Source of the DNA: an uncultured Ruminococcus sp.
Lineage (GTDB): Bacteria; Bacillota; Clostridia; Oscillospirales; Acutalibacteraceae
DNA length: 35,148 bases
Direction: 5' to 3'
Assembly (NCBI GenBank): GCA_902790475.1
Contig: CADASG010000010.1
Location: forward strand, 1-35,148
Positions 500-35,148 of the stretch are shown piece after piece; position 1 is the stretch's first letter; each line of letters begins with the position of its first letter. Position numbers and translations under genes: made by a program. The notes under the pieces were generated by a model. The model was given only the letters and a program-made list of their open reading frames with translations, was not told the origin of the DNA and did not search any database.

Positions 500-526
500 C
501 GTGAAGTGGGTCAGAATAGATAGGAT

Positions 527-569
527 AACCGCAAAACGCGGTTGCTATCGAAAAACTGCGTGTTTTTCG
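527..569 (+). promoter_or_regulatory. Two stem-loops in the sortase operon leader
   Basis: A perfect 6-bp stem AACCGC/GCGGTT (527-543, loop AAAAC) is followed by a 7-bp stem CGAAAAA/TTTTTCG (549-569, loop CTGCGTG). They sit between the promoter and the ribosome site GGAAGGTGATG of the first gene. The second stem lies about ten bases from the ribosome site, so an effect on translation or mRNA stability is possible. No known riboswitch class is recognised. Confidence 0.45.
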
Positions 570-584
570 GAAGGTGATGAGACG

Positions 585-1193
585 ATGAAAAAAATATCCG
601 CAATCATTGCTGCGCTTCTTGTTACTGCCGTTTCAGCTGTTACGGTGTTTGCCGCAGGCGTAAATGACAACGAGCGGAAGGTTCTCGATGAGCTTAAGAC
701 AAGTGTCGAAATGCAGGGTAAGGATATGTACTGGCCCGAGGCTTTCGTCAATCAGGCGGAGAATTATTTTAACACTATTGATATGGATGCAGACCAGGCT
801 GAAAAGATTATTGCTGTTATCAAAAACGGCAAGGAACAGCTTGAGTCTACAGGCGCAGAGAATATTGCCAAATGTACGGCAGAACAGAAAAAGGAACTCA
901 TGACAACTCTTACCGATGTTGTGGCTCCCATAAACGGTACTGCTTCATATGACAAGACTTCAGGTGAGGTTACCCTGAAGTCCGGAAACGGCGAGGTTAT
1001 TTTCAAGGCAGTTCCCACTCTTGTTGAAAAAGGCAGCAATAAGGGTGAGGGCATCAACGGCAAAACCACAGATGGCGGAGTGATCAAGATAACAGGCGCT
1101 TCCGCCGATTTGTCGCCCTTTGTACTTATCGGAGCAGCTATTGTTTCCGTTATTGCAGGCGGTTTTGTTTTTGCAGCAAGGAAGAGGTTATAA
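585..1193 (+). CDS. Secreted, C-terminally membrane-anchored protein; candidate class D sortase substrate
   Basis: A 202-residue protein. Residues 1-23 form a classic signal peptide (MKK, hydrophobic core, VFA-AG cleavage site). The middle (24-165) is a polar, mostly helical extracellular region followed by a short beta-like stretch near 118-145. Residues 179-198 form a hydrophobic segment, and the protein ends AARKRL. This resembles a cell-wall sorting signal, but the usual LPxTG is replaced by VIKITGA (166-172). The ATG at 585 is chosen over an in-frame GTG at 501 because it follows a good ribosome site and starts exactly at the signal peptide. The stop overlaps the sortase ATG by one base (TAATG), so the two are translationally coupled and probably work together. 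No enzymatic domain is recognised. Confidence 0.75.
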   Translation: MKKISAIIAALLVTAVSAVTVFAAGVNDNERKVLDELKTSVEMQGKDMYWPEAFVNQAENYFNTIDMDADQAEKIIAVIKNGKEQLESTGAENIAKCTAEQKKELMTTLTDVVAPINGTASYDKTSGEVTLKSGNGEVIFKAVPTLVEKGSNKGEGINGKTTDGGVIKITGASADLSPFVLIGAAIVSVIAGGFVFAARKRL

Positions 1194-1909
1194 TGTCGGG
1201 ACATAACAGACACAGACACGGTAAAAAACTTGGAGGGAAGAGTTTTTTGATTCTTCCCATTATATTTTGTTTGGGAATTCTCCTGATAACTTTCTCGGTG
1301 ATAGCCTTAACGCCTGATTCAATAAAGTCAGCGGCAGGTACCGTATTCTCGGCCGCTGAAAAAGATTATTCTTCCTTATACGAGAATATTTTTGTACCGG
1401 TAAATGAAAGTGATGTTGTAGATACGGTTAAAAATGAAAAGGGCGAGCCTGTGATAAAAGCGGAAGCTGTAAAATACCCGAGCTACGGAGTTCAATTCGG
1501 CGAGGTTATTATCAAGGGCTGCGGAATAGATTGTCCTTTGTTTATGGGTGACGGCGATATTGCCCTCAGCAACGGCGCGGGCGTATACTACGGAAGCTTT
1601 ATCCCGGGCTACGGAGGAACAACCCTGATCGCAGGTCATAACAACACGTATTTCAACGGCCTGAAAAAAGCCGAACGCGGGCAGGAGATTATCATCAGAA
1701 CCAGCTACGGCAACTACAAGTATAAAATCAGGGAAACTGCGGTCAAGGACGCGCTTGATACCTCGTCATATGATTTGTCTGCCGACAATGAAAATTTGAT
1801 ACTGTATACGTGCTACCCGTTTGATGAGGTTGGTGTTTCAAGCAAAAGACTATTTGTTTATGCGGATTTGATTGACGGCATGGCTATCGAAAAAAATACA
1901 GCTGAGTGA
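1193..1909 (+). CDS. Class D sortase
   Basis: A 238-residue membrane transpeptidase. A basic, His-rich N-terminus precedes one transmembrane helix (about 18-40); the sortase beta-barrel follows from about residue 90. The catalytic triad is visible: His149 in LIAGHNNTYF, Cys207 in LILYTCYPFD and Arg219 in SSKRLFVY. The TLxTC-like strand with Tyr-Pro-Phe after the Cys fits class D or related small sortases rather than class A or B. Sortases cleave a sorting signal and join the protein to peptidoglycan or to another protein. It overlaps the candidate substrate gene by one base. The downstream membrane-protein gene starts eight bases after the stop. Confidence 0.9.
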   Translation: MSGHNRHRHGKKLGGKSFLILPIIFCLGILLITFSVIALTPDSIKSAAGTVFSAAEKDYSSLYENIFVPVNESDVVDTVKNEKGEPVIKAEAVKYPSYGVQFGEVIIKGCGIDCPLFMGDGDIALSNGAGVYYGSFIPGYGGTTLIAGHNNTYFNGLKKAERGQEIIIRTSYGNYKYKIRETAVKDALDTSSYDLSADNENLILYTCYPFDEVGVSSKRLFVYADLIDGMAIEKNTAE

Positions 1910-1917
1910 GAGATATT

Positions 1918-2763
1918 ATGAGCAAAAAACAAACCAAAAAAAATATCCGTAATGTTGTATTCTGTGTATTATCGTTTATTCTTGCCCTGTTTCTTTTTGT
2001 GAATTCTGTCTGTATGCTTTCCGTTGCGTTTTTCCTCAATGAAAACGCGTGGATCGATCAGATGAACTCATCAAATTATTTCACCGATAAAGCGGATGAA
2101 ATAAAAAACAAGCTGGTTTTTCTCGGTAACGCCGGAGGCTTGCCTCCCGAGTTCTTTGAAAATGTTGTTGACCCGATTCAGGTTGCAAATGATACGCAGA
2201 CCTATATGGACGCATACTTTAACGGAAGGACTGCCGGTGTTGACGGCACGGCGTTTAAGCGGAAGTTTTCATCGGAGCTCGATCGTTATATTACGGAAAA
2301 TAACGCAAAGTATGACGATAATAATAAAGAGTATCTTGTTGATAACGCAGTGCTTATTTATACAAACGGTCTGGAAATTCCGCTGTTCTACAAATTATCG
2401 GAACTCTTTGCGGAATTAAAGGGCGTTATGCCGTTCGTTATTGCAGGACTCGGCGCCGGTATGGCGGCGATAGTTCTGGTTCTGTTTTTTTGTAACAAAT
2501 GGAAGCACCGCACCTTCAAATATTATTGTTATTCGTGCGCCGGAGCGTTTCTTTCGCTTTTAGCCGTTTCGATATATATGTCGGTTGCCGGCGGATTAAA
2601 AAATATTGTTTTGGAATCGAGAGCCTTGTACGATACAGCCGTTTCTTTCGGAACGAGCATTTCAATCGCGTTATGGATACTGACCGCGTTTTTCTTGATC
2701 ATAGCTCTTTTGATGTATGTGATTTACAGTAATAAGATCAGGAAGGTTTCCGCTACAGACTAA
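1918..2763 (+). CDS. Membrane protein of the sortase operon, function unknown
   Basis: A 281-residue protein. One N-terminal transmembrane helix (about residues 10-38) is followed by an extracytoplasmic domain of roughly 120 residues rich in Asp, Asn and Tyr, then three hydrophobic helices near 166-188, 200-224 and 245-270. The ATG at 1918 is preferred over the GTG at 1906 because AGTGAGAG lies just upstream of it and the GTG sits inside the sortase stop region. The spacing makes it the third gene of the sortase operon. It has no similarity I recognise; a scaffold or accessory role for the sortase-substrate pair is a guess from context. Confidence 0.7.
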   Translation: MSKKQTKKNIRNVVFCVLSFILALFLFVNSVCMLSVAFFLNENAWIDQMNSSNYFTDKADEIKNKLVFLGNAGGLPPEFFENVVDPIQVANDTQTYMDAYFNGRTAGVDGTAFKRKFSSELDRYITENNAKYDDNNKEYLVDNAVLIYTNGLEIPLFYKLSELFAELKGVMPFVIAGLGAGMAAIVLVLFFCNKWKHRTFKYYCYSCAGAFLSLLAVSIYMSVAGGLKNIVLESRALYDTAVSFGTSISIALWILTAFFLIIALLMYVIYSNKIRKVSATD

Positions 2764-5420: not shown

Positions 5421-6560
5421 TTAACAGTCGCCTGTTTCATCAGTGGATTTAAACTTCTTTAATGCTTTAATTTCTCCGAAGAGCTTTTTTCGCTGTGTTA
5501 TCAAGCCTTTGAACGGTCTGTAAACCACCAATAAAGGATAAAGAACCCTGTGGCGGTACACAACGGGATAATACAGCTTCAGATGTCCCTCGTTTGGAAA
5601 GACCCTCCTGCGAATATAGCGCTGTTTAGTATGCTTGCTTCCTTCATTTTTCAGCGATCTGACTACAAGGTTCTCGACACTTCCGAAAGTGCCTGAATCC
5701 GTATAAAGAGCAAGCTCAGCTTTGTCGCTGTCTGTAAGCGGCTGAAAGGAGAATACCTTTTCAGCAAGCTGACGCGTTTTTGATTCAAAATCTCTGACGC
5801 CGAAGTATTCCAGCTCACGGCTGATATAACCGCGGTCAAGCGTCTGTCCTATTGATTTATTGATGATATAGATATCAAGAAGCGAACGCAGTCCCGTACC
5901 TGCTTTTGAAAAATGCTTGTACATATGATTGATACAATAGATATAAAAATCCTCATTGGTCATATGATAGCCGCAAAGGTTGCTGTCGTCCTTGATAAGG
6001 CGTTCTTTGATATTTTTATAGTATGTATATGCCTCGGGATATTCGACGCTGTTGAGCAGGTTAGCGTGCATTTCAAAGCACAAAGGATCCTTATGGTATA
6101 CGTCGTGCTTCAGGTTGCCGTACTGCACACAGGAAAAGCCCAACGACTCCATTACTTCTCTGACCTCGGACATTTTTTCAGAGTCACATAGTATGTCGTT
6201 GTCGGACATCTCGCGCATCGACGATTCGGGATACATATCCTTTATCAGTATACCCTTAAGCGGAAGATACCAGATTCCGCGTTCGTCAAAAGCGCGCAGT
6301 ATCCTTGCGCGCTCTGCCTGATAAATAATGAGTCTGCGCTTTGAATTGCCCTTTGCGCTTATCCAGTGCTGCGGCAGCGGCATTACCTTTTCGAGTGCGC
6401 ATGCTGCGGCTGCGGCAAGCATATGAAGGCTTGCCAAACGGAACACCGACGCATCATCCATTTCAGCACACCGCTTAGCGTCCGGAGTAATTCTATTGGC
6501 AGCACAGGAAACAAGATAAATCAAATCCTTAGCGTTTTTTGTGATTTCGCAGTGATTCAT
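5421..6560 (-). CDS. Nucleotidyltransferase-fold family protein (NTP_transf_5 type)
   Basis: A 379-residue predicted cytoplasmic protein. The diagnostic stretch lies near residues 99-125: LPLKGILIKDMYP, then REMSDNDILCD, matching the LKG...YP...R-x-[MS]-x-D-x-D-[IL]-L pattern of the uncharacterised nucleotidyltransferase family PF14907. The Asp-x-Asp would be the metal-binding pair. Members are frequently encoded in polysaccharide and antibiotic-like clusters, but the substrate is unknown to me. The C-terminal ~70 residues are very basic. It follows the end of the big minus-strand operon but is separated from it by a terminator (6676-6718), so it needs its own promoter; I see none that is clear. 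The ribosome site AGAAAGGA precedes the ATG. Confidence 0.72.
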   Translation of the reverse strand: MNHCEITKNAKDLIYLVSCAANRITPDAKRCAEMDDASVFRLASLHMLAAAAACALEKVMPLPQHWISAKGNSKRRLIIYQAERARILRAFDERGIWYLPLKGILIKDMYPESSMREMSDNDILCDSEKMSEVREVMESLGFSCVQYGNLKHDVYHKDPLCFEMHANLLNSVEYPEAYTYYKNIKERLIKDDSNLCGYHMTNEDFYIYCINHMYKHFSKAGTGLRSLLDIYIINKSIGQTLDRGYISRELEYFGVRDFESKTRQLAEKVFSFQPLTDSDKAELALYTDSGTFGSVENLVVRSLKNEGSKHTKQRYIRRRVFPNEGHLKLYYPVVYRHRVLYPLLVVYRPFKGLITQRKKLFGEIKALKKFKSTDETGDC

Positions 6561-6675
6561 TACCGGCTGTCCTTTCTATGTTGTTTTCACGGCAGGCGTA
6601 TGCGGCTGTGATGCTGAAAAAGCTGTTTGAAACTCATGAATTCGATCCTTTATAAAACGGAGAGTTATCCTTCAT

Positions 6676-6718
6676 GGAAAAAAAGATGATATCAGCAAAT
6701 AAAGACTGTATTTGCTGC
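6676..6718 (-). terminator. Intrinsic terminator at the end of the long polysaccharide operon
   Basis: On the minus strand CAGCAAATA pairs with TATTTGCTG (6693-6717, 9 bp, 7-base loop) immediately after the stop of the GT2 gene. It is followed within about ten bases by a run of seven T (6678-6684 on the complement). Confidence 0.8.
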
Positions 6719-6719
6719 G

Positions 6720-7727
6720 TTAAGCCATTACTTTTCTTAAGGAGAAGTATAGCCTGTATGCCCGATTTTTTATTAAAATCAGATCTACTTTGGCTGCTTT
6801 GCTCAACAAATCCGCACTCAGGATCTTGTTTTTTTTCAGCACGTTGAAATCCATATTCCTTTTGATATAATCAATGTATTCAAGCCTTTTTTTATGCTCT
6901 TTTATCGGGAGCAGCAAGCGGAAACATTCCCTTATTCCTTCCAAAGCAATAATGTTTTTGCTTTCTTCGTTTTGAGTCAGGTTCATCTCCATGTTCAGCG
7001 CCTGAATTCTGGTTGATACCTGATCGTCATAAAACTTTGTACTGGTGCTGTGGCCGATCCGGTAAAAGTGAGTATAAAGAGATTTACGTACAAATAAAAA
7101 TCTGCTGCAATACAATGAGTACTCAGAGTTGAATATGATGTCCTCGTTTCCGTGTACCACATTCTCATCAAACCTTACATTATTTTCAACGAGAATACTC
7201 TTTCTGTACAAACCGTTCCAAATTGAACTGTATATGCCGCTCAGCTTGATCCTGATATATTGCTCGGAAAACTCTTCCTTGTCCAGACATACGTCGAGAT
7301 ATGTGTTCTCTGTCTCTTTTAATATCTTATTCTCCGGGGTAATTCTGATGTTTTTCCTTCCGCATTTGGCAAGGTCGGCGTTCTCGGATATAATCCCTGA
7401 AAACAGCACCTCGAGGAAATCGGTATCGTAATAATCATCATTATCAATAAAAGTGACATACTCGCTCCTGCTTGCGTCAATACCCACGTTTCTCGCAGAA
7501 CACACTCCGCCGTTTTTCTTATGTATTACCCGTATCCTGCCGTCGGTATCCGCGTATTTGTCACATACCTCAGCACTGCCGTCCGTTGAACCGTCGTTCA
7601 CTAATATCAACTCAAAATCTGACATTGACTGTTTAAGAACGCTTTCGATAGCTTCCGGCAAGAATTGTTTTGAATTATATACCGGCATTATTACAGACAC
7701 CTTCGGAGTTGTCAAATTATTACTCAT
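6720..7727 (-). CDS. Family 2 glycosyltransferase
   Basis: A 335-residue GT-A fold enzyme with the typical GT2 N-terminus: VSVIMPVYNS near residue 10, ELILVNDGSTDGS near 40, GGVCSARNVGID near 75 and FIDNDDYYD near 95. The Asp-x-Asp/Asp-Asp pair binds the metal-nucleotide sugar. It would transfer a sugar from a nucleotide donor onto the lipid-linked repeat unit at the cytoplasmic face; donor and acceptor cannot be told from sequence. Its ATG overlaps the stop of the upstream acyltransferase gene by four bases (ATGA). It is the last gene of the operon, and its coding sequence is visibly AT-richer than the nucleotide-sugar genes. Confidence 0.9.
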   Translation of the reverse strand: MSNNLTTPKVSVIMPVYNSKQFLPEAIESVLKQSMSDFELILVNDGSTDGSAEVCDKYADTDGRIRVIHKKNGGVCSARNVGIDASRSEYVTFIDNDDYYDTDFLEVLFSGIISENADLAKCGRKNIRITPENKILKETENTYLDVCLDKEEFSEQYIRIKLSGIYSSIWNGLYRKSILVENNVRFDENVVHGNEDIIFNSEYSLYCSRFLFVRKSLYTHFYRIGHSTSTKFYDDQVSTRIQALNMEMNLTQNEESKNIIALEGIRECFRLLLPIKEHKKRLEYIDYIKRNMDFNVLKKNKILSADLLSKAAKVDLILIKNRAYRLYFSLRKVMA

Positions 7728-8242
7728 ATCATTTCCCCGGTAGTATATTTGATTTTTTCGAGAGTATAATTACTGCTGTTTTTCAATACCGAATCAGGCG
7801 GGATAACGCCGTGCACCACACAACCCGCTCCGATTACAGTATTATCTCCGATTTCTGTACCTGCAAGAATAACCGCGTTGCTGCCGATCCAGCAATTATT
7901 TCCGATAACAACAGGCTTACAGGAAAAGCCCTGATCTGCAACCTTTTGTCCCTTGGTTTTAAAAACATGGTTGTGATCATATATTTTTACTGCTTCACCG
8001 AAAATGCTGTCATTTCCGATTGTTACGCTCTGACGGACATTCAGACTGCAGTCATTATTAAAAAATACGTTATCGCCGATTGCAAGCTTTCCTTCCCGTG
8101 AACAGTTAATAGTAAATCTTTTTCTGAAAGAAAGCTTTTTGCCTAAGGTAATGTTTTTGCGGAAAAGCTTTATGCAGCCGATTCTGATATATGAAAATAA
8201 TTTTCTGAATATTCTGCCGATAACTAACATTTGATTTGTCAC
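7724..8242 (-). CDS. Hexapeptide-repeat acyltransferase (WbbJ/LacA-like)
   Basis: A 172-residue left-handed beta-helix acetyltransferase. Imperfect [LIV]-G-x4 repeats run from about residue 50 to 150 (KLAIGDNVFF, VTIGNDSIFG, VVIGNNCWIG, TEIGDNTVIG). The catalytic His lies in IYDHNHVF near residue 91. The WIGSNAVILAGTEIG stretch is typical of the maltose/galactoside O-acetyltransferase group. It probably O-acetylates a sugar of the repeat unit from acetyl-CoA. A GTG at 8242 is the longest start; the ATG at 8230 is nearly as plausible, because AGAGGA lies 13 bases before it but only two before the GTG. The gene is coupled to the next by an ATGA overlap. Confidence 0.86.
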   Translation of the reverse strand: MTNQMLVIGRIFRKLFSYIRIGCIKLFRKNITLGKKLSFRKRFTINCSREGKLAIGDNVFFNNDCSLNVRQSVTIGNDSIFGEAVKIYDHNHVFKTKGQKVADQGFSCKPVVIGNNCWIGSNAVILAGTEIGDNTVIGAGCVVHGVIPPDSVLKNSSNYTLEKIKYTTGEMI

Positions 8243-8259
8243 ATCCTCTTATACGAAAG

Positions 8260-9678
8260 TCATTTTTTGTTCTCAGCGTTTTTGCTGCGACGTTTCAGAA
8301 TAGACATAATTTCTGCCTTGCTTTGCAAGAACATCCACGCGATATTAGCAAGATTGAGAACCAATCCGGCAATTATCAGTATCGGATTTTTAACAACATA
8401 TGCTATCCATGAGAATATCAATATTGCAAAAACAAGAATACATTTTGAGTAAGAAATTTTAATTTTGTAGAATTTTTGGATATTTAAGTATCTGTAAACA
8501 AACAATGCGATAAACGAAACCAGAGTTGAGATAGAAGCCGCGTATAACCCAATGAAGTATATCAGTGCAAAATGAACTCCGATGTTAACAATACCGGAAA
8601 TAACAGTTGTAATTCCGACATTCTTTGTCTTTTTGAAGGCTACATATACGCTTCCGAGACTCGCAGACAATCCCGAAAATACTGCGGCCGTGAGCAGAAT
8701 AGGAACGTGATTGTATGCCTCGCTGTAGCTTTCGTTAACCAGAATATCAAAAACAAACGGCAGAAGATTAATGATACCAATTATCAGTGAAAAATACATC
8801 TGGATTGTTATTGTAATAATTCTGTTCGTGTAGGAAAGAGCGTCCTTGTCGTGGATATTCTTTACTACATTTTCTGTCCACGCCAGATTGAAAACATTGA
8901 AGAAGGTGTTCAGAATATTGGAGAACTTGTTCGCAACCGAGTATATTCCGTTCATACTCTTACCCAGGACCCCGAGAATGATCAGGCGGTCGGAGTAATT
9001 GATTGCCCAGCTTGAAATCTGGTTGAAAATCAGTGGAACCGAATATTTCAGCATTTCGATCGTTCTGACTTTGCTGATATACTTTCTGTTTACGTATTTA
9101 TACGCCTTGGTTCTCAAAATCATATAGACAGAACCGATAATGTGCGCGATAGCGGTAGAAATGATTACGCCCAGAATACCAAACTTGAATACTGCAACAA
9201 AAACAATATTAAGAGAAACTGTAATTAATGAGATCAGAAACGTAGCAAAGCCATACACCATATTTTTGCCGAATCCTCTGCATACCTGATACAACACGGT
9301 TGAGCACATTATTCCGGCATAGTAAAAGTACAGCGGAACGCAATATTCAAATCTGAATAACAGTGCCAATACAATATAAATCGTACTGACTAAAGAGAAT
9401 GAGATAAGAAGCGTATATAACGCGGAAGTGATAACACTGCTGATGATTTCCTCTTCATTGACGCTAATCAAAAATCTGAAAATAGCCTGCTCAAGCTGTA
9501 AAGTAATTACAGGCATTAATATCATTACCAAAGAATAGTAAATGTCGAGCTGACCATATTCTTTGGTAGAAAGAAGGGCGGTATACAACGGCAGCAAAAA
9601 AAAGCTGACAACTTGCGTAGATGTTTTCGCTACAAACAGAATACCGGTATTTTTGACTAGATCCTTGCCTCTGGACAT
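8260..9678 (-). CDS. wzx: Polysaccharide flippase, Wzx/MATE-like
   Basis: A 472-residue, highly hydrophobic protein with about 12-14 predicted transmembrane helices and the N-terminal signature of the oligosaccharide flippase family (GKDLVKNTGILFVAKTSTQV, then a Pro-Leu-Tyr turn). Flippases of this MOP-superfamily move the undecaprenyl-linked repeat unit from the cytoplasmic to the outer face. The C-terminus is short and basic (RRSKNAENKK). The ATG follows GGAGGAAATG and lies three bases after the polymerase stop. The partner polymerase is the gene immediately upstream in the operon, so this is a Wzx/Wzy-dependent pathway. Codons are strongly AT-rich. Confidence 0.88.
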   Translation of the reverse strand: MSRGKDLVKNTGILFVAKTSTQVVSFFLLPLYTALLSTKEYGQLDIYYSLVMILMPVITLQLEQAIFRFLISVNEEEIISSVITSALYTLLISFSLVSTIYIVLALLFRFEYCVPLYFYYAGIMCSTVLYQVCRGFGKNMVYGFATFLISLITVSLNIVFVAVFKFGILGVIISTAIAHIIGSVYMILRTKAYKYVNRKYISKVRTIEMLKYSVPLIFNQISSWAINYSDRLIILGVLGKSMNGIYSVANKFSNILNTFFNVFNLAWTENVVKNIHDKDALSYTNRIITITIQMYFSLIIGIINLLPFVFDILVNESYSEAYNHVPILLTAAVFSGLSASLGSVYVAFKKTKNVGITTVISGIVNIGVHFALIYFIGLYAASISTLVSFIALFVYRYLNIQKFYKIKISYSKCILVFAILIFSWIAYVVKNPILIIAGLVLNLANIAWMFLQSKAEIMSILKRRSKNAENKK

Positions 9679-28883: not shown

Positions 28884-29223
28884 TGGATTTCAGGGAATTA
28901 GTGAGGTTGACAGCGCGTTTTTGTTACATCAACATAAAAATAATACTATTTTTTGCTATTTGTCATGCGGATAATAAAGCAAAAGGAATTGATAGGGTTT
29001 TTGAGATAATTGCTAATTGGAAAATAGTAATTCACTGTCTTTTGCTTTTGCTTATTTATCACTGTAATTTTACCACAAAACATAGAAAATAGCAATAGAC
29101 AAAGCGTTTCTAAAACATGCTATTATGCGTGACAGATGTGTTAATAATGCGTAGTGTGTTCAGATAAAAACGGATAATATTTCTGATTTTGCAGGATTGA
29201 AGCCGGATTTTTGGGGTAAAATG
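28884..29223. other. Gene-free AT-rich stretch
   Basis: Together with the leader this makes a gap of about 640 bases (28623-29259) without a gene. Beyond the promoter, inverted repeat and terminator listed separately, I see nothing identifiable. A plus-strand open frame at 28883-29092 lacks a ribosome site and any family resemblance. Confidence 0.6.
28976..29048. repeat. Inverted repeat in AT-rich intergenic DNA
   Basis: AAAGCAAAAG (28976-28985) and CTTTTGCTTT (29039-29048) are perfect 10-bp inverted copies, 53 bases apart. They lie in very AT-rich DNA between the polysaccharide promoter and the phage-like cassette. A weak second minus-strand promoter (TTGCTA, 17 bases, TAAAAT; 29067-29095) lies just outside. 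Confidence 0.4.
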
Positions 29224-29249
29224 CCGGCTCCGCGTTTTCGCGGAGCCGG
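29224..29249 (-). terminator. Strong terminator after the phage-tail cassette
   Basis: CCGGCTCCGCG (29224-29234) and CGCGGAGCCGG (29239-29249) form a perfect 11-bp GC-rich stem with a TTTT/AAAA loop. On the minus strand it is followed by CATTTTACCCC. It lies 10 bases after the XkdX-like stop and closes the cassette. Confidence 0.85.
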
Positions 29250-29259
29250 TTTCTGCTTT

Positions 29260-29406
29260 TCACACGGAGAATTCCCAATCCGAGCCGGTGATGATCTTAT
29301 ATTCCTCTGCGGTGATCCAGCCCTTGACAACGGCGTTTCGGACTCTCTCGATGCTCCACAAGCCGCTGTCAAAGTAGCCCTTTACCTTTTTGAAGTGCTT
29401 ACTCAT
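29260..29406 (-). CDS. XkdX-like phage tail protein (48 aa)
   Basis: A 48-residue protein: it starts MSKHFKKVKGYFDSGLWS, continues with IERVRNAVVKGWITAEEY and ends KIITGSDWEFSV. The pattern [KR]-x-Y-[FY]-x-x-G-L-W-S...V-x-N-A-V-x-x-GWIT-x-EEY-x-x-ITG is that of the XkdX family, small proteins encoded near the tail-fibre genes of PBSX-like prophages and many Clostridia phages; their role is not firmly known. The ATG overlaps the stop of the gene before it by four bases (ATGA). It is the last gene before the terminator. Confidence 0.85.
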   Translation of the reverse strand: MSKHFKKVKGYFDSGLWSIERVRNAVVKGWITAEEYKIITGSDWEFSV

Positions 29407-29630
29407 TCAAGATCCACCTCCGTCATCATGGCGATATACTCCAGGTCTGCCTGAGCCTTTTGGTTTGCTTCGTCCATCAGCTTGATGTACTCGTCTTTTA
29501 TGTATTGAACCATGTGATACTCCCAGCCGTCATTGATTTCCGAAATGTCGGTATTCACCCACACCGAATACTCGTCAACGACCTTCGCTTCGGGTCTGAC
29601 CGTGCTTTTTACAATACCGTAATCTGTCAT
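29403..29630 (-). CDS. Small phage tail-region protein of unknown function (75 aa)
   Basis: A 75-residue acidic protein that starts MTDYGIVKSTVRPEAKVVDE, followed by YSVWVNTDI and later EYHMVQYIKDEYIKLMDEA. Small proteins of this sort, with a VWVNTDI-like motif, commonly sit between the fibre/baseplate gene and xkdX in prophages of Clostridia (recalled, not searched). It starts 12 bases after the fibre gene stop, with GGAGAGAT before the ATG, and overlaps the XkdX-like gene by four bases. The C-terminal half is likely helical. Function unknown. Confidence 0.75.
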   Translation of the reverse strand: MTDYGIVKSTVRPEAKVVDEYSVWVNTDISEINDGWEYHMVQYIKDEYIKLMDEANQKAQADLEYIAMMTEVDLE

Positions 29631-29642
29631 GAATATCTCTCC

Positions 29643-31967
29643 TTAAACTGTCGCCGTCGGAACGAACAGCAGTCTGCCGCCGATCTCGGAATTCTTATAA
29701 TTGGGAACGAAGCTGCACGCCCAATAGAAACTGCCTCCGCTTTCTCTTGAGGACCAACGCCCTCCGTACACAGCGATGCGGTTTCCGTTCAGGTTCTGAG
29801 TGCATGCGCAGCTGTCACCGACCGGAAGTGAACTGTTTCCCGTTCCTTCAGATGGAATGAACAACCAGTCATATTCTTCGTTCCCATAGCCAAATGCAGA
29901 TACCCAACCGTTTACATTCACGATTGAAAAACCGGTGGACTTGTAGTTACCGATGTGCTTGCTCTCGTCGAAGTTAAAGTCGCTGCAGATGTACGCCTGA
30001 CCGCCGCCCATGTTGCCGTCACCCCAGAAATTAATACCGTTAACCTGTTTCCAGATATTTCCCCAAGGGTTTTCCATTCCGCGATAACTGACCGCGACTT
30101 TGCCGTTAGTGTTGAACGGCGTTTCAGTTCCGGCGACATCATATATTGTTTCTCCTGCCATACCCGTAACGTTGCCGAGCGCGGAGGTGGAACCGGTCAG
30201 TGATGAGCAATTGTCTGAACCGCTGGTTGCGTTATAGACTATACCCATTCCAATTGCTGTCTGCGTATTGAAGGATCCCAGTTCAATCGCCATGAGCAGC
30301 TGATTTGCGGAAACAGACTGAATTGTGTCGAGGTGCCAGTTAGACGATTTTCTCAGTGCACAGTTCTCCAAATTGACTTTGTTCATCGCCTTGTACTGAC
30401 CGGATATCGGCTTGACGCCCGGCAAGGATTTCAGAACCGCGCTGGTATCAATCGTTGTATCAGTGTCTGTACCGTCGTGGAAAATGGTATCAACGTAACC
30501 GTTTGTACTGACTTGCCTACGCCACATATACGACGCTTCATACGCCGAAAACAGCACATAGTCGATCTCGTTGCCGTTCCCGTCATAGAACAGCGGGTGA
30601 AGCTTGAAGCCTGCGTGCGGTGTTGAGCTGATGTAGTAATTCGCCTTGCGGATATGATATCCCAAGCCGCCGGACTGCTTCTCGAGCTTTAGCGGTACGA
30701 CCTTGTAGTAGAACTTCGGCTGATATACCATCACATCGACATTTGTATCGTTCTCAGTGATATTCTCCGGCGACTCGGTTTCATCAATAACGCCGTTCGA
30801 ATCGACAACCACGCGCCTGCGCTGACCGTACATCGGAAACGCGTTGAAATCACTGCCCGCGTTCAGACCGACAGCAGCACCGAGCCTTGTAAATACCTTG
30901 TTCTCAAAATCGGCATGCAGACCGAGGATATCGCCGCTTGTGTAGCCGATATACGCCTTGAGGTCGGAGAGGTTTGCGTTCGTTTCCGTAATATCTTCAT
31001 TAACGCTGTCAACGATCTGTACTCCTAAGTCAAACACAGCCTTCGCGGTGGGGTACTCCGTATCTGTTGAATTCTCGTCAATGCCGTCCGCTGAGGTCAG
31101 CTTGTTCGACAATGCCTCGCAATTCGCGGCAAGATAATCAACAACCGCCTTGATTGACGGGTACAGCGTGGTGCTTGCTTTGTTGACGGCTGTAATTGAG
31201 CTTTGCTTGTTGCTTGAGCTTTCGTTATTAACAACAGCCCATGCGGTATACGTTACAGCGCCGCCGGCGGTAAGCTCACGCTTGTATTCCGTGCCGTCAT
31301 AACAAAGCGCGATCTGATAGTAGTTGTTTGCCGTTGTAAGCACAAACGCGTTCTTGCCGTTTACAAAGGCGTTGGTGTAGATTTTTTTCGGGTTGTCCGC
31401 ACTGTACACAACAGTGGTTGTCGTACTGTCAATTGTGAAGGCGGTTGATATTGGAGCCTTTGTGCTGAGAGCGGAGTTTATCACCCGGTTCTGAACAGGG
31501 TGGGTGCTTGTTGCACTGAGCTCGTCATCAACAATTATTCCTCCGTGCTCGTCGATAAGCTGAACCCGGCGGATAAGTCTGTCGAGAATTGAGTAGGCCG
31601 GGTCTGAGGTGACGTCCGTGTCGAGCGCATCGTCAACATAAATTAAAAATCTCTGTGTGTTATAAGTTCTCTGACTGTCGGAAATCACGAACCTCGCCGC
31701 GGCGAATCCCTTTACCGCGAAGGTGATGTCGTCGGTGACGGCGGTGGCGGTTCCGTCCTGTTCGACCTCGCAGTTGACTGCAACTCTGCTGCCGTCGGAA
31801 TTAACGCCTTTCATCACCACGGAACAGCCGCTGACCGGGTAAGGAGAGCCGTTTGCGGTGACAGACAGATGGATTTTTTTACCCTTGTCAAACTGCGTCA
31901 GCATTACCGTTTTGCAGCTTCGTTCGCAGTTGAGATCAAGTGTGATTTCCGCGATATAATCGTTCAT
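29643..31967 (-). CDS. Phage baseplate/tail-fibre protein with BppU-like N-terminus and C-type-lectin-like C-terminus
   Basis: A 774-residue protein. Residues 1-130 resemble the N-terminal domain of BppU-type baseplate proteins (LTQFDKGKKIHLSVTANG, then DGTATAVTDDITFAVKGF). Residues 130-345 are fibre-like, with STHPVQNRVINSAL and two copies of a Y-P-[ST]-x-KAV motif (269-275, 305-311). From about 400 to the end is a C-type-lectin/FGE-like domain: SYMWRRQV, YRGMENPWGNIWKQVNGINF (628-647), FGYGNEEYDWLFIPS and a terminal GGRWSS...IGGRLLF (735-768). That last block is built like the variable region of diversity-generating-retroelement target proteins. It probably binds a surface ligand. AGGAGG lies seven bases before the ATG. 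No capsid, portal, terminase, integrase or reverse transcriptase gene is nearby. Confidence 0.85.
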   Translation of the reverse strand: MNDYIAEITLDLNCERSCKTVMLTQFDKGKKIHLSVTANGSPYPVSGCSVVMKGVNSDGSRVAVNCEVEQDGTATAVTDDITFAVKGFAAARFVISDSQRTYNTQRFLIYVDDALDTDVTSDPAYSILDRLIRRVQLIDEHGGIIVDDELSATSTHPVQNRVINSALSTKAPISTAFTIDSTTTTVVYSADNPKKIYTNAFVNGKNAFVLTTANNYYQIALCYDGTEYKRELTAGGAVTYTAWAVVNNESSSNKQSSITAVNKASTTLYPSIKAVVDYLAANCEALSNKLTSADGIDENSTDTEYPTAKAVFDLGVQIVDSVNEDITETNANLSDLKAYIGYTSGDILGLHADFENKVFTRLGAAVGLNAGSDFNAFPMYGQRRRVVVDSNGVIDETESPENITENDTNVDVMVYQPKFYYKVVPLKLEKQSGGLGYHIRKANYYISSTPHAGFKLHPLFYDGNGNEIDYVLFSAYEASYMWRRQVSTNGYVDTIFHDGTDTDTTIDTSAVLKSLPGVKPISGQYKAMNKVNLENCALRKSSNWHLDTIQSVSANQLLMAIELGSFNTQTAIGMGIVYNATSGSDNCSSLTGSTSALGNVTGMAGETIYDVAGTETPFNTNGKVAVSYRGMENPWGNIWKQVNGINFWGDGNMGGGQAYICSDFNFDESKHIGNYKSTGFSIVNVNGWVSAFGYGNEEYDWLFIPSEGTGNSSLPVGDSCACTQNLNGNRIAVYGGRWSSRESGGSFYWACSFVPNYKNSEIGGRLLFVPTATV
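29664..29765 (-). other. Candidate variable region (DGR-target-like)
   Basis: This is the codon range of residues 735-768 of the lectin-like protein. The framework GG-x-W...G-G-x-F-Y-W...P...IG-x-RLLF is kept, while positions that in retroelement targets derive from AAC/AAT codons hold Ser, Arg, Glu, Cys, Asn, Tyr and Lys. No near-copy that could be a template is present in the window. The assignment is by motif only. Confidence 0.45.
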
Positions 31968-32030
31968 TTTATTCCTCCTGATTTTTATTATTGAGGTGGG
32001 GCGTCCTCATTTACACGCCGAAAGTGCAAA

Positions 32031-32054
32031 TAATTGCATAAAACTATGCAATTA
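32031..32054. promoter_or_regulatory. Palindromic operator candidate over the cassette promoter
   Basis: TAATTGCATA-AAAC-TATGCAATTA is a perfect 10-bp inverted repeat with a 4-base spacer. It overlaps the -10 box and predicted start of the minus-strand promoter at 32051-32079, the classic position for a repressor site. The binding protein is unknown. Confidence 0.6.
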
Positions 32055-32079
32055 AAAGCGACAAACCAACAAGTGACAA
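32051..32079 (-). promoter_or_regulatory. SigA-type promoter of the phage-tail cassette
   Basis: On the minus strand TTGTCA (32079-32074) and TTTAAT (32056-32051) are separated by 17 bases. Start near 32044 is predicted, giving a leader of about 77 bases before the fibre gene. Confidence 0.65.
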
Positions 32080-32300
32080 TAAAGAGTCCTGATTTTTATT
32101 TAAAAAAGACAATTGATGATAAATCTTGCTAAAAAGAGAAAGCGCCTGTTTGAAATGTTGAAGCCTGAAAAACCGTAGATTTACCGATAGGTGACAAGAA
32201 AAAAATCAAGAAATCTTATTTTAATTCCTTTATGTAAATAAACTGTACGCGAAATCAGGTAAAATATGATGTTGAAGAATGATTCTGCGGTGGTGGTAGT

Positions 32301-32864
32301 TTGAAAAAAACATTGCTTGTAACAAACTCCGAGCAAAGTGCTGCCGCTCTTTCAAAGCTCCTCGAAGAGGAGGGCTACGAGGATATTACCGTTTCATACG
32401 CTGCCTACAGCGCTGAGCAGCAGGATGAGGAATTCGACCTCGTATGCATCAACGCTCCTTTAGCGGACGAAAACGGCATTGCGCTGGCAACGCGCTTTGC
32501 GAACACTACGCGCGCGAGCGTGGTGATTATCGTACCTAAGGCAAGCGCAGAGAAGGTCAGCGATATGCTCAACGAAAAGGGCGTGCTCGTTATTTCAAAG
32601 CCGATCAACAGGCACCTCTTTCATCACTATCTGCTCTTCGCGGACTGTTTCCGCAGTCGTCTTTTCAGAGTGGAGCAGGAGAACGACAAGCTCAAGCATA
32701 TGGTTGAGGATCTCAAAATCATCGACCGCGCCAAGATATTGCTCGTCACCTGCCTGAATATGAGCGAGGAACAGGCTCACCGCTACCTCGAGAAGCAGGC
32801 GATGGATATGCAGACCAGCAAGCTTGCCGTCGCAAAACAGGTCATCAGAACCTATCAGAACTGA
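32301..32864 (+). CDS. ANTAR-domain RNA-binding response regulator with degenerate receiver
   Basis: A 187-residue protein. Residues 1-115 form a receiver-like domain (LLVTNSEQ at the start, VISKPI with the conserved Lys-Pro near 98). The usual phospho-accepting Asp is replaced: DLVCINAP stands where DLVxxDxxMP is expected. A coiled segment (about 120-135, EQENDKLKHMVEDL) leads to an ANTAR domain (about 133-187: AKILLVTCLNMSEEQAHRYL, then QTSKLAVAKQVI). ANTAR proteins bind paired RNA hairpins and prevent transcription termination. The start is a TTG at 32301 after GGTGGTGG; an upstream stop excludes longer versions. The gene precedes carAB and may regulate nitrogen or pyrimidine genes; the receiver cannot be phosphorylated in the normal way. 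Confidence 0.83.
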   Translation: MKKTLLVTNSEQSAAALSKLLEEEGYEDITVSYAAYSAEQQDEEFDLVCINAPLADENGIALATRFANTTRASVVIIVPKASAEKVSDMLNEKGVLVISKPINRHLFHHYLLFADCFRSRLFRVEQENDKLKHMVEDLKIIDRAKILLVTCLNMSEEQAHRYLEKQAMDMQTSKLAVAKQVIRTYQN

Positions 32865-32882: not shown

Positions 32883-32905
32883 GGGCGAGTTTATCCGCCC
32901 GTTTT
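32883..32905 (+). terminator. Weak terminator or attenuator between the ANTAR gene and carA
   Basis: GGGCG (32883-32887) pairs with CGCCC (32896-32900) around an 8-base loop and is followed by GTTTTG. The stem is only 5 bp. It ends about 30 bases before the carA start. It could let polymerase through or act as a target of an antiterminator. Confidence 0.35.
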
Positions 32906-32936
32906 GAATAAACCACTATTTGAAAGGATTGTTACT

Positions 32937-34019
32937 ATGAGTCGTGCTGCGTATTTAGTGCTCGAAAACGGAACGGTTTTTGAGGGCAAGGCATTTGGCG
33001 CCGAAAAAGAAACTATGGGAGAGCTTGTTTTTACAACCGCTATGACAGGCTATCTTGAAACACTCACCGACCCCAGCTACTTTGGTCAGGTGGTTCTTCA
33101 CACATTCCCTCTTATCGGTAATTACGGCGTCATTCGTTCGGATTTCGAGACCCCTACTCCCGCGCTCAATGGTTATATTGTAAGAGAATGGTGTCAAGCG
33201 CCGTCCAACTTCCGCAGTGAGGGCGATCTTGACACCTTTTTAAAAGAGAAGGGCGTTACGGGTATCTGCGGCCTTGACACCCGCGCGCTCACCAGAATCG
33301 TCCGCGAATACGGCGTTATGAACTGCCGTATTCAGTACACACCCGAGGTGACCGACGAGATCCTCAATGAGCTCAAGGGCTTTGTCATCACCGAGGCGGT
33401 TGAGAAAACCACGATCTCCGAGATCGAGAACTTCCCCGTTGAAAACGCGAAGTACCACGTTGTTCTCATGGACTTCGGTGCAAAGCACAACATCGGCAGA
33501 GAGCTCAACAAGCGCGGCTGCAACCTGACGGTTGTTCCCGCTCACACCAAAGCCGAGGAAGTCCTCGCGCTCAATCCCGACGGCATTATGCTCTCGAACG
33601 GCCCCGGAGATCCCGCAAAGAACACCGCTGTCATCGAGGAGCTCAGAAAGCTCACCGAGAGCAAGGTCCCGATGTTCGGTATCTGCCTCGGTCATCAGCT
33701 TCTCGCGCTCGCACACGGCGCAAAGACTCAAAAGCTCAAGTACGGTCACCGCGGCGCGAACCAGCCCGTCAAGGAGCTTGAGACAGGCAAGGTTTACATC
33801 ACCTCTCAGAACCACGGCTACGCGGTTGTTTCCGACAGCCTGCCGGAGGACAGCGAGGTCAGCTACGTAAACGGCAACGACAACACCTGCGAGGGCGTAA
33901 CCTACACGAGCTTCCCTGCTTTTTCGGTGCAGTTCCATCCCGAAGCTCACGGCGGTCCGCTCGATACCTCGTTCCTCTTCGACCGCTTCCTCAAGATGAT
34001 GGACGACAACAAGAAGTAA
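32937..34019 (+). CDS. carA: Carbamoyl-phosphate synthase small (glutaminase) subunit
   Basis: A 360-residue protein. The N-terminal domain begins AAYLVLENGTVFEGKAFGA and includes MTGYLETLTDPSYFGQ and CGLDTRALTRIVRE. The C-terminal class I glutamine amidotransferase has LSNGPGDPA, the nucleophile Cys in GICLGHQLLALAHGA, YGHRGANQPV, and the His-Glu pair in QFHPEAHGGP. It releases ammonia from glutamine and passes it to CarB. The ATG at 32937 is chosen because the family begins there and GAAAGGATT precedes it; an open frame extends to 32904. Codons are strongly biased towards GC-ending forms, as in highly expressed genes. carB follows after 53 bases. Confidence 0.97.
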   Translation: MSRAAYLVLENGTVFEGKAFGAEKETMGELVFTTAMTGYLETLTDPSYFGQVVLHTFPLIGNYGVIRSDFETPTPALNGYIVREWCQAPSNFRSEGDLDTFLKEKGVTGICGLDTRALTRIVREYGVMNCRIQYTPEVTDEILNELKGFVITEAVEKTTISEIENFPVENAKYHVVLMDFGAKHNIGRELNKRGCNLTVVPAHTKAEEVLALNPDGIMLSNGPGDPAKNTAVIEELRKLTESKVPMFGICLGHQLLALAHGAKTQKLKYGHRGANQPVKELETGKVYITSQNHGYAVVSDSLPEDSEVSYVNGNDNTCEGVTYTSFPAFSVQFHPEAHGGPLDTSFLFDRFLKMMDDNKK

Positions 34020-34072: not shown

Positions 34073-35148
34073 ATGCCACTGAAAAAGGATATTAAAAGAG
34101 TAATGGTTATCGGCTCGGGTCCCATCGTCATCGGACAGGCTGCCGAATTTGACTACGCCGGCACCCAGGCGTGCCGCGCCCTCAAGGAGGAGGGTCTTGA
34201 GGTTATCCTCGTAAACTCCAACCCCGCGACAATCATGACCGACAACGCCATGGCGGATAAAATCTATATCGAGCCGCTCACCCTCGATGTGGTAAAGCGC
34301 ATTATCATCAAAGAAAAGCCCGACAGCCTGCTTTCGACCCTCGGCGGTCAGACAGGTCTGACGCTCTCAATGCAGCTCGCGAAGGAAGGCTTCCTCGAGA
34401 AGCACGGCGTTCAGCTGCTCGGCGCGAAGCCCGAAACTATCGACAAGGCGGAGGACAGACAGCTGTTCAAGGACACAATGGTGTCCATCAACCAGCCCGT
34501 CATTCCGTCGCTTGTCGTAAACGACGTTGAATCCGCCGTTAAGTTCACAAACGAAATCGGCTACCCCGTCATTATCCGTCCCGCATTTACCCTCGGCGGC
34601 ACAGGCGGCGGTATTGTTAATAACGAGGAGGAGCTCAGAGAAATCACCTCGAACGGTCTTGAGCTTTCTCCGATTACCCAGGTTCTGGTCGAGAAGTGCA
34701 TCTCGGGCTGGAAGGAAATCGAGTTCGAGGTAATGCGCGACTCCATGGGCAACGTAATCACCATCTGCTCTATGGAGAACTTCGACCCCGTCGGCGTTCA
34801 TACCGGCGTTCATACCGGCGACTCAATCGTTATCGCGCCCGCTGTGACGCTCTCGGACAAGGAGTACCAGATGCTCCGTTCCGCGGCGCTCGACATCATC
34901 TCGGCTCTTAAGGTAGAGGGCGGCTGCAACTGTCAGTTTGCGCTCGATCCCGAGACCTTTGAATACGCCGTAATCGAGGTCAATCCGCGTGTTTCGCGTT
35001 CCTCGGCGCTCGCTTCAAAGGCTACCGGATACCCGATTGCCAAAGTTGCTTCCAAGATCGCTATCGGCTACACCCTCAGTGAAATTAAAAACGCCGTTAC
35101 GGGTACGACCTACGCGTGCTTCGAGCCCGCTATCGACTATGTTGTCGT
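34073..35148 (+). CDS. carB: Carbamoyl-phosphate synthase large subunit, N-terminal part (cut by window edge)
   Basis: The first 358 codons of a protein of about 1070 residues. It has [44 protein letters not shown], the ATP-grasp loop [25 protein letters not shown] and [25 protein letters not shown]. This is the first ATP-grasp half, which makes carboxyphosphate. The enzyme supplies carbamoyl phosphate for arginine and pyrimidines. An oddity: GVHT at 241-244 is directly repeated at 245-248 by an exact 12-base tandem duplication (34793-34816) in the His243 loop (E. coli numbering agrees). The frame is kept. The ATG is preceded by AAGGATT. Confidence 0.95.
34793..34816 (+). repeat. Exact tandem 12-base duplication in carB
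   Basis: GGCGTTCATACC occurs twice in direct succession, adding Gly-Val-His-Thr. The usual CarB sequence here is [MV]-G-[IV]-H-T-G-D-S with no repeat. Either a genuine insertion in an active-site loop or a sequencing/assembly error. Confidence 0.9.

Follow-up and report, generated by a model that had tools for sequence, protein, structure and literature searches.

A phage-type tail-fibre cassette beside a polysaccharide locus as the probable receptor-binding operon of a dispersed gene transfer agent-like element in a Ruminococcus-like genus

We analyzed a 35,148-base stretch of DNA from an uncultured Ruminococcus sp. (GenBank assembly GCA_902790475.1, contig CADASG010000010.1; hereafter the window), in which a cassette of three phage-type tail genes, encoding a fibre, a 75-residue protein and an XkdX protein, lies between a polysaccharide locus and chromosomal ANTAR and car genes. 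The window is the whole of contig C10 in an assembly of 2.74 Mb and 174 contigs that is 94% complete with 3.6% contamination. The features of the locus are as follows.

29643-31967, minus strand: tail fibre gene, 774 residues, with a BppU_N domain (about residues 1-130; Pfam, E 1.6e-8) and a C-terminal region (residues 234-771) matching the tail protein family phrog_5302 (7.4e-74)
29403-29630, minus strand: gene for a 75-residue protein, phrog_18126 (2.1e-16), whose adjacency to the fibre is conserved
29260-29406, minus strand: gene for an XkdX protein of 48 residues (Phage_XkdX, 8.8e-18)
32032-32053, no strand: palindromic operator, AATTGCAT-N6-ATGCAATT, 64 bases before the fibre ATG and common to the head cluster and lysis loci of relatives
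29223-29250, plus strand: GC-rich hairpin of 12 pairs past the 3' end of the cassette, with a T-run on the plus strand only
6720-28700, minus strand: polysaccharide locus by Pfam (glycosyltransferases, flippase, Wzy, GDP-mannose and dTDP-rhamnose pathways)
32301-32864, plus strand: ANTAR response regulator by Pfam, the chromosomal flank
32904-34019 and 34073-35148, after the ANTAR gene: carA and carB, the latter cut by the contig end

The three genes are intact, as a first-pass annotation made from the bare sequence had observed, and the good ribosome site noted there is present as AGGAGG upstream of the fibre gene. The same annotation saw no other phage gene in the window and took the flanks to be chromosomal. 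A Pfam scan of 30 other window proteins agrees, having found no phage structural, packaging or lysis gene; these proteins belong to polysaccharide, sortase, ANTAR and carAB genes or have no match. The fibre is thus enclosed neither by contiguous phage modules nor by decay, the marks of a prophage or its remnant, and stands with constrained, intact partners between chromosomal flanks. No RNA families or tRNAs were found in the window.

The control elements once proposed for the cassette fared unequally. The operator candidate is real, being a perfect palindrome that is unique in the window (base composition alone predicts 4e-7 in that upstream stretch) and recurs before the fibre in relatives. 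The promoter found no support, as a scan with the consensus yielded no sigma-70 promoter in the interval from the cassette to the ANTAR gene. The hairpin of the supposed strong terminator exists; its T-run is on the strand opposite to the cassette, so that it fits plus-strand transcripts, and on the strand of the cassette itself the sequence after the hairpin reads CATTTTACC.

The fibre would serve in receptor binding, and the polysaccharide locus is a possible source of its receptor. Used as a query against a phage collection, the fibre gave three matches, all distant, and its C-terminal region had no sequence match in the PDB up to E 1. The position of the 75-residue protein corresponds to that of xkdW in PBSX. 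The lectin-like appearance of the C-terminus also suggested the target of a diversity-generating retroelement, a candidate that we rejected: the three reverse transcriptases of the assembly resemble group II intron enzymes by their QGG-type motifs, judged by eye, in an apparently mixed assembly and with no search for template repeats.

Similar cassettes occur in relatives. In G123 (taken as CACXAO010000008.1, uncultured Ruminococcus sp. RUG11079) the cassette occupies the site equivalent to that in the window, with the ANTAR gene on one side and a polysaccharide locus of largely different genes on the other, whereas in G107 (taken as NZ_JAHLQB010000032.1, 'Lachnoclostridium' sp. MSJ-17, apparently an isolate) it lies on the far side of the car operon, flanked by prfA and an aminotransferase gene. 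The placement between polysaccharide and ANTAR genes is thus found in the first relative and not in the second. In a third genome, G046, the fibre start adjoins prfA and a contig end cuts off the remainder. No phage genes adjoin the cassette in G123 or G107, and neither outcome that the first-pass annotation had named as contrary, a full prophage at this site or a single strain with remnants, was seen. The fibre is 71.0% identical to that of the window in G123 and 70.6% in G107. Ratios of nonsynonymous to synonymous substitution (dN/dS) are 0.149 against G123, 0.131 against G107 and 0.155 between these two, with dS high and partly saturated, and all three cassette genes are under purifying selection. 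The recurrence of the cassette and the low fibre dN/dS indicate that it is no decaying relic, as had been surmised. Conservation of the fibre is uneven, identity being about 90% over residues 1-160 and about 57-63% over residues 161-330 and 601-775.

A search for the fibre in 84,980 species genomes gave 18 named loci, and the surroundings of all 18 were inspected. Eight have no adjacent tail gene (L177, which is G123; L178; L180; L181, which is G107; L187; L188; L189; and L193, which is G046), a contig end falling within the fibre in L178, L180, L189 and L193; nine stand among phage or prophage genes by inspection of open reading frames (L179, L182-L186, L191, L192 and L194), and L190 is ambiguous. 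The L178 cassette adjoins rfb genes, as in the window, and that of L180 an aminotransferase gene, as in G107. The six related cassettes (window, G123, L178, G107, L180 and G046) are thus divided between polysaccharide genes (three) and the prfA/aminotransferase site (three). In L189 a similar palindrome, TTGCATAAACCTATGCAA, is found immediately 5' of the fibre. Separately, L187 and L188, from other Oscillospiraceae/Eubacterium metagenome-assembled genomes (MAGs), carry a lone pair of fibre and 75-residue genes in a shared chromosomal position close to thiI- and nifS-like genes, without this palindrome; the pair is possibly a second orphan-fibre lineage.

The search for a tail lacking its own fibre, also suggested at the outset, found a head and baseplate cluster throughout the genus. 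In G107 it spans about 10.4 kb on the same contig as the fibre, 32 kb away, and by Pfam and PHROG encodes TerS, TerL, portal, prohead protein, a decoration-type protein, capsid, connectors, LysM/XkdP-like and XkdQ-like proteins, BppJ and Gp48, together with four small genes without a match. On that contig, C5, the fibre gene is at 6602-8908 and the capsid gene at 46462-47469. The capsid gene is single-copy in 128 of the 139 genomes of the genus (69 of the 72 of high quality), is 64-100% identical among them and has an internal stop in one of the 128. We mapped the cluster in G107 and 20 other genomes, a few of the clusters being cut by contig ends; gene order is constant across all 21, and inspection of them showed no gene for a fibre, sheath, tape measure or lysis protein. 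Eleven (L201-L207, L209-L211 and L214) have after Gp48 an open reading frame of 153-158 residues starting like MASTN, which is missing from the relatives of the window and possibly encodes a short fibre whose place the cassette takes. In the wider order the capsid gene was found in 20 of 197 genomes, among them eight of the 13 other genomes of the same family that were listed. Among 29 capsid relatives in IMG/VR, 27 have at least five head-cluster genes on contigs of 4.5-18.6 kb, and L324 and L346 have the capsid gene alone. The entries L319-L345 of that database include GTA-like (gene transfer agent-like) head clusters of this group filed as viruses of about 4-19 kb.

The palindrome connects these loci. 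The pattern TTGCA-N8-TGCAA lies upstream of TerS in 19 of the 21 clusters, compared with 230 of 10,500 random stretches of equal length, a figure in which true sites are counted, and in the other two clusters near-palindromes, TTGCATAGTTGTATACAA and TTGCTCTTTAAAGGGCAA, were found by eye before TerS. The motif stands 64-66 bases before the fibre in the window, G123, G107 and G046, the distance in G123 and G107 being 64 as in the window. The stricter pattern TTGCATN6ATGCAA has 467 sites in the 139 genomes, a count that includes chance and repeat-borne sites, versus 14 for the reversed pattern, and 119 of the genomes have at least one; at least three sites occur in 79 of the 128 capsid-bearing genomes, as against one of the 11 that lack the capsid gene. 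Chance as the origin of the palindrome was rejected on its expectation in the window, the genome-wide counts, the enrichment before TerS and its rarity in the viral collection, in which the 22-mer AATTGCATANTTTTATGCAATT was found in two contigs, one of them a head cluster. The palindrome is absent from all 80 fibre-bearing viral loci (1.01 Mb). One complete genome, G106, has seven copies of TTGCATGGGATAATGCAA and its complement, a repeat family that mimics the operator pattern; the seven sites were not taken as operators and are contained in the 467.

We inspected 28 sites outside the head clusters in 11 genomes, those of G153, G170 and G174 being covered in part. The 23 sites that precede a gene of one of four kinds are distributed as follows.

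Fibre or adhesin-like gene (8): G000, G107, G123, G046, G043, G013, G170, G164
Holin gene (4): G107, G123, G046, G159
Lysin gene (3): GH25 in G107 and G046, amidase in G164
DUF6291/DnaD-type gene (8): G107, G123, G046, G159, G043, G153, G164 (two)

The G046 lysin is split across two frames. In other genomes dissimilar fibres stand behind the same operator, which lends support to the earlier idea of a swap-in module.

Moreover, the operator changes in concert. In G164 the operator before TerS is TTGCACACAAGTGTGCAA, and TTGCACN6GTGCAA occurs at five sites of this genome, TTGCATN6ATGCAA at none. Those five lie before TerS, genes for an adhesin-like protein with leucine-rich repeats and for an amidase, and two DUF6291 genes. 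Eight other genomes were tested for the changed pattern, which is missing from seven and occurs twice in G010, where both sites are within coding sequences; we rejected these two as operators and took them as chance. Across eight genomes, 23 operators outside the head clusters match the head operator of their own genome at 21.1 of 22 positions and those of others at 19.5 (permutation p 0.00015, the sites permuted being those already retrieved and no random draw); without G164 the values are 21.2 and 20.2 (p 0.0005). Shared ancestry of a genome does not by itself make its separate loci alike, and the identical change at five G164 loci points to one regulator, which probably switches all operator-bearing loci together.

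We therefore read the cassette, with a probability of roughly 0.75, as the receptor-binding operon of a domesticated, GTA-like phage element that would be dispersed over about five co-regulated loci in this Ruminococcus-like genus. The first-pass annotation had offered a tailocin part supplied in trans. Supply in trans is favored here, and the element served would be head-bearing and DNA-packaging: the genus-wide cluster encodes TerS, TerL, portal and major capsid protein, which leads us to prefer a GTA-like element over a headless tailocin. Conserved, vertically inherited head and packaging genes, as expected of a GTA, are found in the genus and not in the window's own assembly. The 21 mapped clusters give no sign of self-carriage or replication as a phage, with the fibre and lysis genes elsewhere, and the DnaD-like, replication-type protein in the regulon means that the lack of a replication module is not absolute. 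The dispersed loci would be expressed in coordination, a prediction for which the shared and co-varying operator is strong sequence evidence.

Under this reading, a regulator binding the palindrome would switch on the head, fibre, lysis and DnaD-like operons at once. The head operon would supply TerS and TerL, portal, prohead protein, capsid, connectors and a small baseplate (LysM/XkdP-, XkdQ-, BppJ- and Gp48-like proteins) and no fibre; TerS and TerL would load the heads with DNA, presumably that of the host, and the short baseplate would receive the fibre made in trans from the cassette. This would require a BppU/XkdX fibre of siphophage lineage to attach to a baseplate of the Gp48 type with no tape measure present. 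Holin and endolysin would release the assembled particles, and the variable C-terminal region of the fibre would bind the surface of a recipient, probably a polysaccharide, so that DNA could be delivered. We further entertain, tentatively and as the less likely outcome, a genus-wide GTA of about five loci with one evolving operator-regulator pair and an exchangeable fibre operon. The fibre of the window's lineage would be kept beside polysaccharide genes so that ligand and receptor are inherited, and perhaps swapped, together as a linked self-recognition module, and the operator-controlled DnaD/DUF6291-type protein may be the regulator (compare GafA, with its DnaA-like DNA-binding domain).

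Several observations weigh against a GTA-like element. The window's assembly has no capsid gene or head cluster, so that head and fibre are not seen together there, and it holds one further palindrome, whose target is not evident. Contig C7 of the same assembly bears a second ANTAR-carA-carB set that is 58, 78 and 91% identical to that of the window, and C112 a near-identical ANTAR gene with other neighbours. XkdX is found in four of the 139 genomes of the genus, the cassette copy being the sole one in the window's assembly and the G046 copy lying on a prophage contig. Eighteen capsid-bearing genomes lack an exact TTGCATN6ATGCAA, and an operator variant was traced to other loci in one of them, G164, in which the protein counted as the fibre has leucine-rich repeats and gave no BppU match. 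Five of the 28 inspected sites are off-pattern, one before a VapE-like gene (G174:C8) and four with no clear target (G174:C1, G153:C13, G013:C110 and G000:C61). Numerous sites lie between divergent genes, where the phage-type gene was taken as the target, and in G043 the operator-fibre pair sits in a prophage tail neighbourhood.

With regard to the missing head cluster, the RelA-like gene of the assembly is just 50% identical to that of G107. This divergence and the duplicates on C7 and C112 point to a probable origin of C10 in another strain, in which case the absence of the head cluster would be uninformative. The assembly seems to be a mixed MAG, with C10 probably from a minority strain close to G123 and G107, the remaining contigs of which did not enter this bin.

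Two operator-like sites deserve separate description. In L274 (G043:C133, 1-9879) the operator is just 5' of a fibre gene, with tape-measure-like and Dit-like reading frames upstream and the start of a GH25 gene downstream, as in a prophage tail-like region; either a prophage may have taken up the GTA operator, or a GTA fibre module may have entered a prophage by recombination. In L279 (G174:C8) an operator-like palindrome at 6142-6159 stands 5' of a VapE-like gene that apparently belongs to a mobile element.

The alternative that survives best, which we nevertheless think unlikely, is that the same dispersed particle kills competitors in the manner of PBSX, packing host DNA and injecting none, with the fibre aiming the killing. 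PBSX of Bacillus subtilis is a defective phage that packs host DNA, and its genes for sheath, tape measure, fibre and lysis lie together in a single contiguous block resembling a prophage. The order of fibre, 75-residue and XkdX genes after a Gp48-like baseplate protein resembles its xkdU-V-W-X; its sheath and tape measure, however, are unseen in the 21 mapped clusters. Near-universal presence in the genus is compatible with transfer or killing, and the authors of the FpGTA study leave that question open (PMC12946183).

It is much less probable that the cassette is the leftover of a lost prophage, intact by accident. Close relatives of the whole cassette do occur in the tail operons of phage contigs (L016, L018 and L019), yet cassette, spacing and operator are alike in several genomes at two chromosomal sites, all three genes are under purifying selection, and the operator is missing from the 80 phage relatives. 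Slightly less credible still is a stored receptor-binding module that recombines into resident or infecting phages, its operator serving phage late transcription and not a GTA. The G043 pair beside prophage tail genes would suit such a module, as would the variation between genomes of the fibres behind the operator and the existence of phage fibre versions whose C-terminal region reaches about 78% identity; against it, the operator is absent from the fibre-bearing viral loci, its 22-mer is in just two viral-collection contigs, one a head cluster, and it also precedes loci other than fibres. Misjoining of phage DNA to a chromosomal contig in assembly or binning can be dismissed for both junctions despite the mixed appearance of the MAG, as the ANTAR junction is reproduced in the separate G123 assembly (92% DNA identity over 31453-32538) and the rfb junction in L178.

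Among neighbouring genes, a sortase gene (1193-1909) in a segment conserved in G107 and G123 (window 501-2763) is flanked by two genes without clear family, ahead of Wzz, kinase and sugar-transferase genes.

The nearest sequence relatives of the cassette are Ruminococcus-type siphophages of IMG/VR (L016, L018 and L019), in which the fibre gene is followed by the 75-residue gene and, in L016, by XkdX. They differ in that the fibre is within a tail operon, an integrase is present in L016 and L019, and there is no palindrome. PBSX shares XkdX and the XkdP/Q-, BppJ- and Gp48-like baseplate genes, and is a contiguous block as opposed to the dispersed loci found here.

Searches of the open-licence literature (subscription papers and preprints lying outside this scope) found no such gene set or shared operator described for this genus. 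GTAs outside the Alphaproteobacteria are poorly known, and it was not until January 2026 that a gut-bacterial one was reported with its genes. A GTA-like set that nearly every member of a rumen and gut genus carries, at dispersed loci under common control, would point to programmed exchange of genes there; the operator offers a simple search key for the regulator and for parts still to be located, and recipient choice could be read and tested at the fibre operon. The filing of such clusters as short viruses in viral databases calls for caution.

RcGTA of Rhodobacter capsulatus similarly spreads its genes for tail fibre, head spikes and lysis over several loci that share regulators (PMC9638019). 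Capsule and head-spike genes are neighbours there and are regulated jointly, and the tail fibre attaches to the capsule (PMC10218006), which may be compared with the fibre adjoining a polysaccharide locus in three of six genomes here and is our model for the proposed binding of a surface polysaccharide. RcGTA differs in being alphaproteobacterial, with a full tail, different fibres and CtrA/GafA control rather than the palindrome found here.

For Ruminococcus callidus, packaging of 4.6 kb has been reported without the genes being named (PMC12946183). The same paper describes FpGTA of Faecalibacterium prausnitzii, from the same broad group of gut Clostridia, with a 10.5-kb head operon and a 5.5-kb operon of fibre, holin and lysin. 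The likeness to the present element extends to a head operon of about 10.5 kb opening with TerS, TerL, portal and capsid genes, to a separate chromosomal location for the genes of fibre, receptor binding, holin and endolysin (in one strain about 125 kb off), and to the lack of replication genes. FpGTA has two operons (FpGTA I and II), whereas here the fibre, holin, lysin and DnaD-like genes are each separate, and the word 'promoter' is absent from the main text of that paper, so that no shared operator is described there for FpGTA. Particles have been demonstrated for FpGTA, and the present element, known from its genes, is likened to it by the described gene content.

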